Source: Prochlorococcus sp. AG-355-N18
Lineage (GTDB): Bacteria > Cyanobacteriota > Cyanobacteriia > PCC-6307 > Cyanobiaceae
Length of the DNA: 64,000 nt
Reading direction: 5' to 3'
Assembly: GCA_003278535.1 (NCBI GenBank)
Contig: QCEG01000001.1
Location: forward strand, 124,001 to 188,000
The position numbers were made by a program, and so were the translations under genes. Below the pieces are notes generated by a model that was given only the letters and a program-made list of their open reading frames with translations, was not told where the DNA came from and made no database searches. Positions 1,382-8,888 of the stretch are shown piece by piece. Position 1 is the first letter of the stretch. Each line of letters opens with the position of its first letter.

Positions 1382-3091
1382 ATGTCCTATAAAATTGATA
1401 GAAATACTTATGCTCAAACTTACGGACCCACTATCGGGGATAGAGTAAGGCTTGCTGATACCCAACTTTTTATAGAAGTAGAAAAGGATTTAACTACATA
1501 CGGAGATGAAGTTAAATTCGGAGGAGGTAAAGTTATTCGAGATGGTATGGGACAGTCTCAAGTAACAAGAGGAGATGGAGCTGTAGATACCGTAATAACT
1601 AATGCACTGCTGGTAGATTGGTGGGGAATAATTAAAGCTGATGTGGGTATAAAAGATGGCATGATTTTTGAAATTGGTAAAGCTGGTAATCCAGATATCC
1701 AGGATAATGTAAATATTGTTATAGGTGCATCAACAGAAGTAATAGCTGGAGAGGGCCATATTCTAACTGCAGGTTCTATAGATACTCATATACATTTTAT
1801 TTGTCCCCAGCAAATTGAGACAGCACTAGCCTCCGGAATTACAACCATGCTGGGAGGAGGAACTGGACCTGCAACTGGTACAAATGCCACTACTTGTACT
1901 CCTGGTTCTTTTCATATTTCAAGAATGCTTCAATCTGCAGAAGCATTTCCCATGAATTTAGGTTTTTTTGGAAAAGGAAACTCCACAAACGAGAGCAATC
2001 TTATTGATCAGGTTGAAGCTGGTGCATGTGGATTGAAGCTTCATGAGGATTGGGGAACCACTCCCTCTACAATAAATTCTTGTCTTAATGTTGCAGAAAA
2101 GTTTGACGTACAAGTATGTATTCATACTGATACTTTGAATGAGGCAGGCTTTGTTGAGGATACTATCAACGCTATTGCAGGAAGAACTATTCATACTTTT
2201 CATACCGAAGGAGCAGGAGGAGGTCATGCGCCAGATATTATTAAAATCTGTGGAGAAAAAAATGTTCTTCCAAGTAGTACTAATCCAACAAGACCTTATA
2301 CCAGGAACACATTAGAAGAACATCTTGACATGTTAATGGTTTGTCATCACTTAGATTCTAAAATCCCAGAAGATATTGCATTTGCTGAATCAAGGATCAG
2401 AAGAGAGACTATTGCAGCTGAGGATATCTTGCATGATATTGGTGCCTTTTCAATTATTGCTAGTGATTCTCAAGCTATGGGAAGAGTTGGTGAAGTAATT
2501 ACAAGAACTTTTCAAACAGCTCATAAAATGAAAGTTCAGAGGGGGCCGCTATCGCAGGATTCTGATAGAAACGATAATTACAGAGTAAAGAGATATATTT
2601 CTAAAGTTACAATTAATCCTGCAATAGCTCATGGTATTGATAAGCATGTTGGGTCTATAGAAAAGGGTAAAATTGCCGATTTGGTGTTGTGGAAACCTTC
2701 CTTTTTTGCTGTAAAACCTGAATTAGTTGTTAAAGGAGGATCTATAGTTTGGTCCCAAATGGGCGATGCAAATGCTTCAATTCCTACTCCAGGTCCTGTC
2801 CATGGCCGACCTATGTTTGCAAGTTTTGGCCAATCTCTAATTAAGAGTTCTTTTAGCTTTTTAAGTAAAAATTCAATTGATCAAAATATTCCAAATAAAT
2901 TAGGCTTACAAAAGAAATGTATTGCTGTAGAAAATACTAGAAATATCAATAAATCACACTTAAAACTTAATAGTAAACTACCAAATATTTCAGTTGATCC
3001 TCAAACTTATGAAGTTTTTTCTGATGGAGAACTTCTTACTTGTGAACCACTTGATGAAGTTCCAATGGCTCAGAGATATTTTTTACTTTAG
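1382..3091 (+). CDS. ureC: Urease alpha (catalytic) subunit
   Basis: This is the catalytic urease subunit carrying the bi-nickel centre. The nickel-ligand HIH motif sits near residue 137 ([11 protein letters not shown]). The lysine that becomes carbamylated lies in GLKLHEDWG near residue 219, further ligand histidines in HTDTLNE and [15 protein letters not shown], and the flap with the catalytic histidine in MVCHHLD. The 569-residue length is normal and all key residues are present, so the enzyme should be active once metallated. The last 4 bases overlap the stop of the convergent gpgS gene, with no space for a conventional terminator. Confidence 0.98.
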
Positions 3092-4314
3092 AAGTTTTTA
3101 ATTAATTCTTTTTCACTTGTCTTTATGTCTTTTGATCCAGCAATTGCTAAATCTTCTTGCAGTTTGTTCTCACATGATAGAACTCTTGACCAACTTGGTA
3201 ATTGCAATGTTCTAGGACAAGCCAGATAATCTTCTGTAGCAGGTCTTAATAGTTTCGCAAACTTTTGTACTGATAATTCTTCTTCGTGCCTATCGTATGG
3301 AAGTTGATTAACTGCTGAATCTAATCCAAATTGTTTTACTCGATCTTCTCCAACTCTTTTGTAGAGAACTTCTAAAGTCGCTAGTTGGGTGCTAGTTAAT
3401 GTCTCGGCTTGATGCTCCATGAGTCCTCTTAAAACACTTGAAAGGATTTCTGTACACATTTTTTGCAGTCCTTCTTTAGAAGAATCTCCAATATTCTTAT
3501 GTTTATGATCAAATAAACCTAGGTCAACCTGAGCTATTTTGGAGGTTCTTACGTTTCTATAAACTTCTGATAATAAACCTATCTCTAAACCCCAGTCACA
3601 AGGTATTCTTAAATTCATAGCAAGGTCTTTAGTAAACGCGAACTCACCTGCTAATGGATATCTAAATGATTGAAGATATTGCAAAAACGGACCCTTACCA
3701 ACTAACTGCTCAAGACTTGCTAATAAAGGACCGACGAATAATCTTGTTGCTCTACCTTGCAATTGATTTGTTTCTAGGGATAACCTACTGTAAAAAGCCT
3801 TTACATATGATATTCCATATGATTCATCAAGAAGTGGAAGTATCATTCTTGAAGGATATAAAGGACTAAAAGTTCTTATATCAGCATCAAAAAGAGCAAC
3901 AACTTCTGATTTTCTAGTCGCTACTCCTATGCCTTGCCATACAGCCCATCCTTTACCTGGAGTTCCTAAAAGTTCTAACCCATTTTTTTCTTGGCTTTTT
4001 AACAGTTCAATTACAAAGGGAGAATTAGTCCATTGAACGTGAACAGTGAATGGCATTGAGTCAAAAAATGATTTTGCTGCCTTAACTTGCTCAACAGTTT
4101 TTGCAGAGAGGGCAATTACTAATTCATTTAAGCCTGTGAGGTGTTTTAAAACTTCTCTTATATCTTTTAATGCTGGACGTTCAAACTCTTCATATAAGCA
4201 AGGTATTAAAATGCTAGTTGATCTTTTTTTAAGACTTTTGTTTAATTCTTTAAGTAAATTTCCTGTAACGCCATATTCATGTATTGTTGTGATTAAACCT
4301 TGTTGAAAGTCCAT
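3088..4314 (-). CDS. gpgS: Glucosyl-3-phosphoglycerate synthase (GT81-type)
   Basis: It is predicted to transfer glucose from a nucleotide sugar to 3-phosphoglycerate, giving glucosyl-3-phosphoglycerate, the first step of glucosylglycerate synthesis. The N-terminal half is a GT-A fold: a strand with [13 protein letters not shown], a glycine-rich stretch ([18 protein letters not shown]) and the metal/nucleotide DxD motif in [11 protein letters not shown] near residue 143. The 408-residue length is usual for the family. It is divergent from the phosphorylase-phosphatase-kinase operon across a 50-base promoter gap. Glucosylglycerate is an established compatible solute of marine picocyanobacteria, favoured under nitrogen limitation. 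A related mannosyl-transferring activity cannot be excluded from sequence alone. Confidence 0.88.
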
Positions 4315-4364: not shown

Positions 4365-6125
4365 GTGAAGCAAATTGATCCAGAGAAAAAATTAGATAGA
4401 ATAAAAATTGATAAATTGTTAAAAACAATTTATTCAAATCATACTACAGAAGAAATTAATTTTATTTCAAATCAATTATTACAGATTTTAGATAATTTCT
4501 CAGAGAAATCTGCTTATGAAGAAATAAGAGATAAGGAAAGGTGGAATGAATCTCATTCGGTTTTGATAACGTATGCAGATAGTATTTATAAAAATGGCGA
4601 GGCAACATTAACAACTCTTAGGAAGTTGTTAAGTAAACATTTTGGCAGTCTTTCTAAAGTTGTACATATTCTTCCTTTTTTGAAATCTACAAGCGATGGT
4701 GGTTTCGCAGTCTCAAGTTATGATTCCTTAGAAGAAAAATTTGGTGGTTGGGATGATCTCAAAAGTATTTCTAAAAAACATGATTTGATGGCTGATTTAG
4801 TACTAAACCATGTCTCATCATCTCACCCATGGGTTCAACAATTTATTAAATCCCAAGAGCCGGGCATATCAAATGTTTTTTCACCCAAACAAAATCTTGA
4901 CTGGTCAAATGTGGTTAGGCCTAGAAGTTCCTCTTTGTTTTCTCAAATAAATACTGATGATGGCCCCAAACAAGTTTGGACAACTTTTGGTCCAGATCAA
5001 ATTGATTTGAATTGGCATAATCCAAAAATGACTCTTGAGTTCTTAAATTTAATTATTACTTATTTATCTAATGGAATTAAATGGTTAAGGCTTGATGCTG
5101 TAGGTTTTATTTGGAAGGAGTCAGGGACTACATGCTTACACTTACCTAAAGCACACTCAATTGTGAAACTCTTAAGAGTTCTTTTAAATAATCTTCTTGA
5201 AGAGGGAGTTTTAATAACTGAAACAAATGTTCCTCAGAAGGAAAATCTATCTTATCTGATTCCTAATGATGAAGCACATATGGCATATAATTTTCCATTG
5301 CCTCCTCTTCTTCTAGAGGCAATTATTACTTCAAGAGCTGATATTCTAAACTCATGGATTTTTGATTGGCCCATATTACCTGAAGATACTACTTTATTTA
5401 ATTTCACTGCATCGCACGATGGTGTTGGGCTAAGAGCTCTTGAGGGTTTAATGAATGAGCAGAGAATTAAAGATTTATTAATTAATTGTGAGAAAAGAGG
5501 CGGATTAGTAAGTCATAGACGTTTATCAAATGGTGATGATAAACCTTATGAACTGAATATTAGTTGGTGGAGTGCAATGGAAGACTCTAGTAGAGATGCT
5601 AAAAGATTTCAATATGAGAGATTTATTTTGAGTCAATTACTAGTAATGGCTCTAAAAGGGGTCCCTGCATTTTATTTGCCAGCATTACTAGCTTCAGAAA
5701 ATGATATCAAAAGTTTTTCTATGACTGGTCAAAGGAGAGATCTTAACAGAGAAAAGTTTAAATCAGAAAATCTTTCAGCCGTTTTAAATAATCCTGAATC
5801 TAATGCTAATAAAAACTTAAAATATCTCAGTAATGCTATGGATATCAGATCAGAATTAAAGCAATTTCACCCTTGTTCACAAATGAAATGTTTGTCTAAA
5901 GGTAGAAGTGATATTGTTGTAATCAAAAGAGGTAACGGTCCTGAGGCTGTTTTTGCAATCCATAATATGACTGATAATAAAATTAATTATCAATTGAATG
6001 ATAATGATCTATCAAAAATAATTGATAATGATTTTAATACCTTTGATTTTTTAGCATCCAATAAATACAATTGCAAAAATATTAGTCTTGATCCTTTTCA
6101 AGTAGTTTGGCTTAGTTCTTTATAA
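4365..6125 (+). CDS. GH13 sugar phosphorylase, probably glucosylglycerate phosphorylase (often labelled sucrose phosphorylase)
   Basis: This is an alpha-amylase-family barrel enzyme. The GH13 regions are visible: region I DLVLNHVSSSHPW near residue 147, region II with the nucleophile in WLRLDAVGF near residue 243, region III with the general acid in LITETNVPQKEN near residue 285, and region IV NFTASHDGVGLRALEG near residue 345. The family (GH13 subfamily 18) includes sucrose phosphorylase, sucrose-6-phosphate phosphorylase and glucosylglycerate phosphorylase. The ETNVP acid/base segment differs from what I recall of bifidobacterial sucrose phosphorylase. Its position in an operon with the GpgP-like phosphatase and glycerate kinase, opposite gpgS, argues for phosphorolysis of glucosylglycerate to glucose-1-phosphate and glycerate. 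The start is a GTG; the next gene begins 2 bases after the stop. Confidence 0.8.
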   Translation: MKQIDPEKKLDRIKIDKLLKTIYSNHTTEEINFISNQLLQILDNFSEKSAYEEIRDKERWNESHSVLITYADSIYKNGEATLTTLRKLLSKHFGSLSKVVHILPFLKSTSDGGFAVSSYDSLEEKFGGWDDLKSISKKHDLMADLVLNHVSSSHPWVQQFIKSQEPGISNVFSPKQNLDWSNVVRPRSSSLFSQINTDDGPKQVWTTFGPDQIDLNWHNPKMTLEFLNLIITYLSNGIKWLRLDAVGFIWKESGTTCLHLPKAHSIVKLLRVLLNNLLEEGVLITETNVPQKENLSYLIPNDEAHMAYNFPLPPLLLEAIITSRADILNSWIFDWPILPEDTTLFNFTASHDGVGLRALEGLMNEQRIKDLLINCEKRGGLVSHRRLSNGDDKPYELNISWWSAMEDSSRDAKRFQYERFILSQLLVMALKGVPAFYLPALLASENDIKSFSMTGQRRDLNREKFKSENLSAVLNNPESNANKNLKYLSNAMDIRSELKQFHPCSQMKCLSKGRSDIVVIKRGNGPEAVFAIHNMTDNKINYQLNDNDLSKIIDNDFNTFDFLASNKYNCKNISLDPFQVVWLSSL

Positions 6126-6127
6126 AA

Positions 6128-6925
6128 ATGATAGAGAATTCTTCTGTTTGGGTAGTAAGTGATGTAGATGGTACTTTAATGGATCACTCATATGATTTAT
6201 CACCTGCTAAAGAAACTATAAAAAAACTACAAAAATTATCCATACCCGTAATTCTTTGTACAAGCAAAACCGCTTCTGAAGTAAAAGTTATTAGAAAGGA
6301 ACTTAACTTGACGGATCCTTATATTGTTGAGAATGGTGCGGCAATATATGGTGAATCTCTCAAAAGAGTAAATGGAGAAATCATTCTTGGAATAAAATAC
6401 GAATCTCTTGAAGAAATCTTAAATACTATCTCTAAAGAAATTCATTACAAACTTACTCCTCTTAATAATCTCACTGATCAAGAAGCCACTCAGCTTACAG
6501 GTTTAGAAGGTAACTCACTAAACTTAATGCGAGATAGACACTGGAGCATGCCTTTTTTAAACCCGCCAATTTATTTAGAAGAGAAAATTAATATTTGTTG
6601 TAAAAAATTCAATGTTGATATTTTTAAAGGCAATAGAATGAGCCACCTTCTATCCACAAAATCGAATAAAGGTAAAGCAATAAATACTCTTAAAGAATAT
6701 TCAAATGTCCAAAATATTGAAATCATAGGATTAGGCGATTCTCCAAATGATTTGCCTCTACTTTTAAACTCAGATATTAAAATCGTTATTCCTGGAATAG
6801 ATGGACCTAACTTAAATTTACTAGATCAATTAAAAGATTTGGAATTTACTTTGGCTTCTGAACCAAATGGATATGGTTGGAAAAATGAAATCAATAAATT
6901 GATTAATAAGCGAGAACTAAGTTAG
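6128..6925 (+). CDS. gpgP: HAD phosphatase, mannosyl/glucosyl-3-phosphoglycerate phosphatase family
   Basis: It is predicted to dephosphorylate glucosyl-3-phosphoglycerate to glucosylglycerate. HAD motif I is VSDVDGTLMD at residues 10-19, motif II is LCTSKT near 45, the conserved lysine is in NKGKAINTL, and motif IV is GLGDSPNDLPLL near 205. These features match the Cof/MPGP-type cap subclass. The 265-residue length fits. It is tightly packed between the phosphorylase (2-base gap) and the glycerate kinase (4-base gap). The GpgS partner gene close by makes the glucosyl substrate the best guess; mannosyl-phosphoglycerate is the alternative. Confidence 0.85.
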   Translation: MIENSSVWVVSDVDGTLMDHSYDLSPAKETIKKLQKLSIPVILCTSKTASEVKVIRKELNLTDPYIVENGAAIYGESLKRVNGEIILGIKYESLEEILNTISKEIHYKLTPLNNLTDQEATQLTGLEGNSLNLMRDRHWSMPFLNPPIYLEEKINICCKKFNVDIFKGNRMSHLLSTKSNKGKAINTLKEYSNVQNIEIIGLGDSPNDLPLLLNSDIKIVIPGIDGPNLNLLDQLKDLEFTLASEPNGYGWKNEINKLINKRELS

Positions 6926-6929
6926 AAAG

Positions 6930-7874
6930 ATGAAAGATTTAGATATTAATTTTCCTCTCGATAAATTTGAAAAATTAATTATTGATATTGGTTGGGAATC
7001 CTTGGATGATTGGTTCAATTTTTGGAACAAGAAAAGAAATATTCTTTCAATTGATCAATATTGGAACTATAAAGTAAATGATGACTGGATATGGGGTTTG
7101 GCTTTACCTCTTTTATCTCAGGCTTGTAAATTTCAAAATAATTTTTCTAATAGAAAAATTATTGGAATCTCAGCTTTACCTGGAACAGGTAAAACAACAC
7201 TAGGTAAATGGCTCGAAGCTATATCGTTAAAATTAAACTTCAAAATTGCGGTTATTTCAATTGATGACTTTTATCTCCCATCAAATGAAATGAAATTCGC
7301 AATTAAGAATAACCCTTGGAATGTTTCAAGAGGGTTTCCTGGTAGTCACTCAATAAATTTGATGTATGAAAAATTATTAAATTGGAAGATCAATGGAGTA
7401 TTAAATGTACCAGTTTTCGATAAATCTTTAAGAAATGGTTTAGGAGATAGATCTCATTGGAGATCAGATAAACCTGATGTTTTAATTCTTGAGGGATGGT
7501 TTTTAGGAATTAAACCTTTTTCTAATGTCATAAATGATCGACTCATAAATACAACAAATTTGAGTCTTCATGAATCATCTTATGTATTAAAAATTCAAAA
7601 AAACCTTAATGAATATTTAGATATTTGGACTTTAATAGACAATATTTGGCACTTAAAGCCTTTGAAGATTGAGTATATGAATATATGGAAAACAAATCAG
7701 GAAAAAGAAATGTTTTTACAGAAAGGTAACGCCCTTAAAGATGAAAAATTATCTAATTTCTTGAGAATGCTTAATGTCTCAATACCTCATAAAAGTTTTG
7801 ATGATATAAAATCCTATGCGCTTTTATTAATTGATCAAGAAAGAAATTTAATTGAGGCTGGATTGAATTTGTAG
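6930..7874 (+). CDS. D-glycerate 3-kinase (plant/GLYK-type P-loop kinase)
   Basis: It phosphorylates D-glycerate to 3-phosphoglycerate. It has a P-loop (GISALPGTGKTTLGKWL, near residue 86), a Walker-B-like strand (ISIDDFYLP), the substrate region NVSRGFPGSHS and a VLILEGWFLG strand, all as in plant-type glycerate kinases. It is the last gene of the phosphorylase-phosphatase-kinase operon. Known family members close the photorespiratory cycle; here the kinase would also recover glycerate released from glucosylglycerate. The first 80 residues are Trp- and Asp-rich, as in relatives. Confidence 0.88.
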   Translation: MKDLDINFPLDKFEKLIIDIGWESLDDWFNFWNKKRNILSIDQYWNYKVNDDWIWGLALPLLSQACKFQNNFSNRKIIGISALPGTGKTTLGKWLEAISLKLNFKIAVISIDDFYLPSNEMKFAIKNNPWNVSRGFPGSHSINLMYEKLLNWKINGVLNVPVFDKSLRNGLGDRSHWRSDKPDVLILEGWFLGIKPFSNVINDRLINTTNLSLHESSYVLKIQKNLNEYLDIWTLIDNIWHLKPLKIEYMNIWKTNQEKEMFLQKGNALKDEKLSNFLRMLNVSIPHKSFDDIKSYALLLIDQERNLIEAGLNL

Positions 7875-8615: not shown

Positions 8616-8888
8616 CTAATCACCTCTAAATACACAGGTCCATCTACTATCAAATTGCCAAACAGGTTTGTATATTTCATTAGTAATTTTTTCGCCTGCC
8701 ATATTACAAGTATCTAAATCTTTCATAGGAATAGAATGTAAAGATGGACTTGTTATTCCACTAACCTCTGGCCTTCCACCAGGACCTTGTCTGTAAGTTC
8801 CAATTATTAACCAATAGTTAGCTTTCGCAGAACCAGAAATGATTAAGGAAAAAAGAAAAAATAATATTAAAATTGATTTTTTTTTCAT
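8616..8888 (-). CDS. Small secreted or periplasmic protein, unknown function
   Basis: A 90-residue protein starting MKKKSILILFFLFSLIISGSAKA, a textbook signal peptide with probable cleavage after AKA near residue 23. The mature part is about 67 residues with two cysteines (LDTCNMAGE and WTCVFRGD) that could form a disulfide. The layout recalls small secreted proteins common in marine picocyanobacteria, for which no function is assigned. It is divergent from uppP. Confidence 0.7.
   Translation of the reverse strand: MKKKSILILFFLFSLIISGSAKANYWLIIGTYRQGPGGRPEVSGITSPSLHSIPMKDLDTCNMAGEKITNEIYKPVWQFDSRWTCVFRGD

Follow-up and report, generated by a model that had tools for sequence, protein, structure and literature searches.

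A predicted glucosylglycerate phosphorylase gene beside the synthesis genes for its solute in Prochlorococcus sp. AG-355-N18

Introduction

Which glucoside is cleaved by the GH13 enzyme that is encoded next to glucosylglycerate genes in Prochlorococcus sp. AG-355-N18? An initial annotation, made from the sequence alone, had proposed that the gene was probably mis-labelled as a sucrose phosphorylase. To answer this question, we analysed the gene and its surroundings in a 64,000-nucleotide stretch (hereafter the window), which is part of a small, AT-rich draft genome of 1.66 Mb in 49 contigs. The open reading frame (ORF) at positions 4365-6125 (+) has 586 codons and zero internal stops, and its GTG start is common to all 24 same-genus loci compared. 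We documented the sequence of the gene, its signatures, its kinship and the gene order with its conservation. With a probability of about 0.93, the product is a retaining GH13_18 glucosylglycerate phosphorylase (GGaP, EC 2.4.1.352) that recycles a compatible solute beside its synthesis by GpgS and GpgP. We therefore call the gene ggaP.

Table 1. Features of the ggaP cluster and of the predicted enzyme, with positions in the window.
Feature	Position	Strand	Evidence
gpgS, glucosyl-3-phosphoglycerate synthase, divergent from ggaP	3088..4314	-	GpgS_Meth 399 bits, below 700 cut-off (NCBIfam); PDB GpgS chains
gpgS-ggaP gap, 50 bp between start codons	4315..4364		sequence
ggaP, predicted GH13_18 glucosylglycerate phosphorylase	4365..6125	+	586 aa, GTG start; signatures, YcjM similarity, tree, AlphaFold model, GH13 fold
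D244, catalytic nucleophile (BaSP D192)	5094..5096	+	alignment
LITETNVPQKEN, residues 283-294: (T/S)ETN signature, general acid/base E286 (BaSP E232)	5211..5246	+	alignment; PMC7178133
NFTASHDGVGL, residues 346-356: region IV, transition-state stabiliser D352 (BaSP D290)	5400..5432	+	alignment
PYE, residues 394-396, loop A: E396 for sucrose phosphorylase Gln345	5544..5552	+	alignment; PMC7178133, PMC6720575
gpgP, glucosyl(mannosyl)-3-phosphoglycerate phosphatase, HAD-IIB family	6128..6925	+	NCBIfam NF001215 571 bits, cut-off 488; PDB MPGP chains
glyK, D-glycerate 3-kinase	6930..7874	+	PDB D-glycerate 3-kinases 6ckg, 7xpc, E about 1e-17 to 1e-16

Active-site signatures

We compared the ggaP protein with the sucrose phosphorylase of Bifidobacterium adolescentis (BaSP, 1R7A). 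Where the ggaP protein reads LITETNVPQKEN and NFTASHDGVGL, the aligned positions of BaSP read LIEVHSYYKK and TVLDTHDGIGV, which bears out the earlier remark that these two motifs differ from the bifidobacterial enzyme. Both are invariant or nearly so among the related proteins of Cyanobacteriota, Pseudomonadota and Planctomycetota that we compared, and are therefore not a product of chance. All eight subsite -1 and catalytic residues of BaSP are conserved: D111, H149, R242, D244, E286, H351, D352 and R458 correspond to BaSP D50, H88, R190, D192, E232, H289, D290 and R399, and the two proteins are alike in fold, subsite -1 residues and mechanism. The acceptor-side residues, in contrast, differ from 1R7A, in loop A (Gln345 versus Glu396) as well as in the strand-5 loop.

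Reviews of GH13_18, from which we took the signature definitions, give two marks of a GGaP: (T/S)ETN at the strand-5 tip and a loop-A glutamate in place of glutamine (PMC7178133, PMC6720575). TETN forms residues 285-288 of the ggaP protein, and is present in all GGaP-like rows of the alignment and in none of the sucrose phosphorylase (SP), sucrose 6F-phosphate phosphorylase (SPP) or glucosylglycerol phosphorylase (GGoP) rows. E396 is aligned with BaSP Q345 and with E382 of E. coli YcjM. Every aligned GGaP-like row has both marks, whereas none of the SP, SPP or GGoP anchors has either. The GGaPs of E. coli (YcjM), Meiothermus silvanus and Spirochaeta thermophila have TETN and the loop-A glutamate in common with the ggaP protein, together with the catalytic triad and an N-terminal extension. 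SPP and GGoP (6S9V, 7XDQ) are also GH13_18 retaining phosphorylases but lack TETN and carry GFDVHQ or VGAIYQ in loop A. Loop A of the ggaP protein, NGDDKPYELN, contains neither the N(L/V)D(I/L/V)YQ motif of sucrose phosphorylases, nor GFDVHQ or KXXYYQ of SPP, nor VGAIYQ of GGoP (PMC7178133). Finally, 93 positions are invariant in 34 other GGaPs. At 77 of these, both signatures included, the genus shows no variation either, and at seven every genus row differs from the other GGaPs.

Similarity, phylogeny and fold

The similarity to YcjM, a characterised GGaP (PMC8950772), extends over the full length of the protein (333 bits, 575 aligned columns), yet the identity is only 33%. Bit scores against the ggaP protein ranged from 333 to 426 for twelve GGaP-type proteins and from 147 to 163 for seven SP, SPP and GGoP anchors, with which it shares about 26-28% identity. 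Two trees split the SP, SPP and GGoP side from the GGaP side at 100/100 and placed the ggaP protein on the GGaP side together with YcjM, the sole characterised GGaP in these trees, as a scan of genome contigs yielded no Meiothermus, Spirochaeta or Xylanimonas anchor. Clustering within the true sucrose phosphorylases, which the initial annotation had named as the outcome that would speak against it, did not occur. In the best tree, the picocyanobacterial family is nested on a long branch next to the GGaPs of other cyanobacteria, but an AU test did not reject the alternative in which the family is sister to all other GGaPs (p 0.39). Loop A, the strand-5 motif, the tree and the scores led us to reject identities as sucrose, sucrose-6-phosphate or glucosylglycerol phosphorylase.

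The best NCBIfam match is TIGR03852 (sucrose phosphorylase), for which the ggaP ORF is the only match in the genome. Its score of 169 bits lies below the cut-off of 334, and TIGR03852 would therefore not name the product sucrose phosphorylase. Pfam detected only the GH13 catalytic domain. The AlphaFold model (pLDDT 88.4, pTM 0.90) has the GH13 (beta/alpha)8 fold; its Foldseek TM-scores against structures of SP, SPP and GGoP were 0.77-0.85 (by target). Amylosucrases came top by E-value, so that the fold fixes the GH13 family but not the subfamily.

The gene cluster and its conservation

The genes that flank ggaP are gpgS, gpgP and a glycerate kinase gene, in agreement with the earlier statement that the neighbours act on glucosylglycerate and glycerate. 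All genus loci of sufficient length have these genes in the same order around ggaP, and the intergenic gap between gpgS and ggaP hardly changed across 24 genus loci. This gap must contain or adjoin the promoters of both genes; given the short distance between the divergent starts, both promoters must overlap the genes or one another. The next larger gene beyond the cluster is uppP. Between glyK and uppP, positions 8616-8888 (-) encode a conserved hypothetical protein of 90 aa that probably has a signal peptide and recurs in several relatives within the genus. In a phage search, all contigs returned were labelled Listeria or Enterococcus phages or fecal 'Bacteriophage sp.', and none exceeded 60% identity.

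To assess the arrangement more widely, we sampled the family with 151 genomes, of which 150 have a completeness of 90% or more. A strong ggaP match was found in 71 genomes, and in all 71 gpgS adjoins ggaP in divergent orientation with a gap of 49-296 bp. Because neighbouring genes are inherited along with orthologues, such counts of gene order do not amount to independent events. Only four of the 151 had a match resembling gpgS but no ggaP. Two side cases come from family genomes that lack ggaP: in G114 the gpgS match is full-length but contains one internal stop (C8:39496-40683), and in G073 only a broken, partial gpgS is present (C10:51565-52350). Both are possible losses of the glucosylglycerate pathway. 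Of 80 distant homologues from other cyanobacteria, Pseudomonadota and one planctomycete, 62 have gpgS and 59 have gpgP at a distance of at most 5 kb, and no E. coli GarK-type glycerate kinase was found near any of the 80. One alphaproteobacterial plasmid carries, behind the GGaP homologue, genes for a glycosyl transferase and an HAD-IIB hydrolase as well as galU.

Several loci depart from this arrangement. Of the 16 loci from other genera of the family (L127-L142), only 6 have the glycerate 3-kinase gene inside the cluster, and the place of this gene in the operon is therefore lineage-specific. A group of filamentous and further cyanobacteria, among them Geitlerinema, Nodosilinea and Oscillatoria (L046, L048-L056), have a GGaP-like gene with no gpgS or gpgP within 5 kb. 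In relative G025, a second, inverted ggaP-gpgP-glyK copy with a truncated ggaP lies on the same contig (L040, 4524-7641 (-) and 15607-19108 (+)), and is likely an assembly artefact.

Proposed function and alternatives

Based on characterised homologues, we predict the substrate, the products and the direction of the reaction in the cell as follows. GpgS would make the precursor, from which GpgP would then yield glucosylglycerate. In GGaP, D244 would attack 2-O-alpha-D-glucosyl-D-glycerate at its anomeric carbon as E286 donates a proton to the departing glycerate; the glucosyl group would then pass to phosphate, which would give alpha-glucose 1-phosphate and D-glycerate. Phosphorolysis would preserve the energy of the glycosidic bond as glucose 1-phosphate. 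The glyK kinase would convert glycerate to 3-phosphoglycerate, which is the acceptor of GpgS; the cluster would therefore combine synthesis (GpgS, GpgP) with recycling (GGaP, GLYK). Synthesis and recycling of one compatible solute would thereby be arranged around a shared divergent intergenic region.

A true sucrose phosphorylase, which converts sucrose to glucose 1-phosphate and fructose, belongs to the same GH13_18 subfamily, TIGR03852 is the best NCBIfam match, and picocyanobacteria accumulate sucrose (PMC6753628). The sub-threshold TIGR03852 score, the PYE loop A together with the TETN signature, and the position in the tree all argue against this identity, and make it extremely improbable. 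In addition, the cluster contains no sucrose genes. Sucrose is dealt with away from ggaP: sucrose-phosphate synthase is encoded on contig C9, a GH100 invertase on contig C2 and a PfkB-family sugar kinase, possibly a fructokinase, on contig C6. The SPP_plant-cyano model had zero matches in the genome, which agrees with the reported absence of separate spp genes from Prochlorococcus (PMC11505929). Signature residues, the match to YcjM over its full length, tree and gene context thus all point to GGaP and support the earlier view that the enzyme is not a sucrose phosphorylase.

Use of water rather than phosphate as the acceptor would make the product a glucosylglycerate hydrolase. This would suit the name gmgG, a glucosidase, under which the gene between gpgS and gpgP appears in papers on picocyanobacteria (PMC9361551, PMC7522525), but all characterised GH13_18 enzymes named in reviews are phosphorylases (PMC7178133, PMC8950772). 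Moreover, the phosphate contacts of IcSPP (loop-B Arg, Glu, Asp and Tyr) are kept as R187, E286, D352 and Y395; a further phosphate-contact Gln of IcSPP is Glu in the ggaP protein and likewise in YcjM. We therefore regard hydrolysis as very unlikely. It is just as improbable as a sucrose phosphorylase that the enzyme drifted within the GGaP type to glucosyl-3-phosphoglycerate or another glycerate glucoside. The long family branch, the seven changed invariant positions and the AU result for a basal placement would be compatible with such drift; the conservation of 77 of the 93 GGaP-invariant positions, with both signatures among them, speaks against it, and the adjoining glycerate kinase fits free glycerate as a product. 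There is a small chance, slightly above that of a hydrolase, that the picocyanobacterial branch forms a type of its own next to the other GGaPs and has changed in substrate or direction; examples would be glucosyl-3-phosphoglycerate as the substrate, or mainly solute synthesis from stored glucose 1-phosphate.

Relation to known systems and naming

The specificity of GGaP is established (PMC7178133, PMC11009771). The E. coli ycjM gene is clustered with genes for an ABC transporter and kojibiose phosphorylase, whereas ggaP in the window lies with those for GpgS, GpgP and glycerate 3-kinase. An identical gene order is known from the gpgS-gmgG-gpgP clusters of Prochlorococcus NATL2A and of Synechococcus (SYNPCC7002_A2021-A2023; SYNW2434-2436), for which recycling has been proposed (PMC11631117, PMC10873239, PMC7522525, PMC2874817). 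From the gene order, we infer that gmgG is the same gene as ggaP. The WH8102 gene SYNW2435, between gpgS and gpgP, was tied to the glucosylglycerate pathway in 2010 (PMC2874817), and the homologue between GPGS and GPGP of Synechococcus PCC 7002 already appears under the name GGAP (PMC10873239). A 2024 paper describes how glucosylglycerate is recycled through the NATL2A operon to yield glucose 1-phosphate and 3-phosphoglycerate, and gives transcript changes (PMC11631117). The NATL2A cluster has an adjoining putative transporter (PMC11631117), whereas we recognised none beside the cluster in the window.

Since GGaP and the recycling in NATL2A were already published, the identity proposed in the initial annotation is right but ordinary: both the kind of enzyme and its role in Prochlorococcus have been described, and we report a correct annotation call, not a discovery. 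The complaint about a wrong label, with its premise that annotation pipelines tend to name every GH13_18 member sucrose phosphorylase, was only partly right. The window itself carries no label, and TIGR03852 would not have supplied one. NCBI calls an alphaproteobacterial homologue 'sugar phosphorylase' and the E. coli protein 'glucosylglycerate phosphorylase'. The complaint fits the names 'glucosidase' and 'sugar phosphorylase' better than 'sucrose phosphorylase'. Our results support ggaP as the name in Prochlorococcus-type genomes, in place of all three. In expression data, ggaP transcripts would report glucosylglycerate recycling rather than sucrose use, and the cluster offers a compact, conserved target for studying the turnover of a nitrogen-free solute in abundant ocean phototrophs. 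A separate observation concerns the gene called gpgP in table 4 of PMC9606707 (PMM0515, NATL1_05721), which lies apart from gpgS (PMM0962, NATL1_09131) by locus number and is therefore probably different from the HAD phosphatase gene of the cluster.
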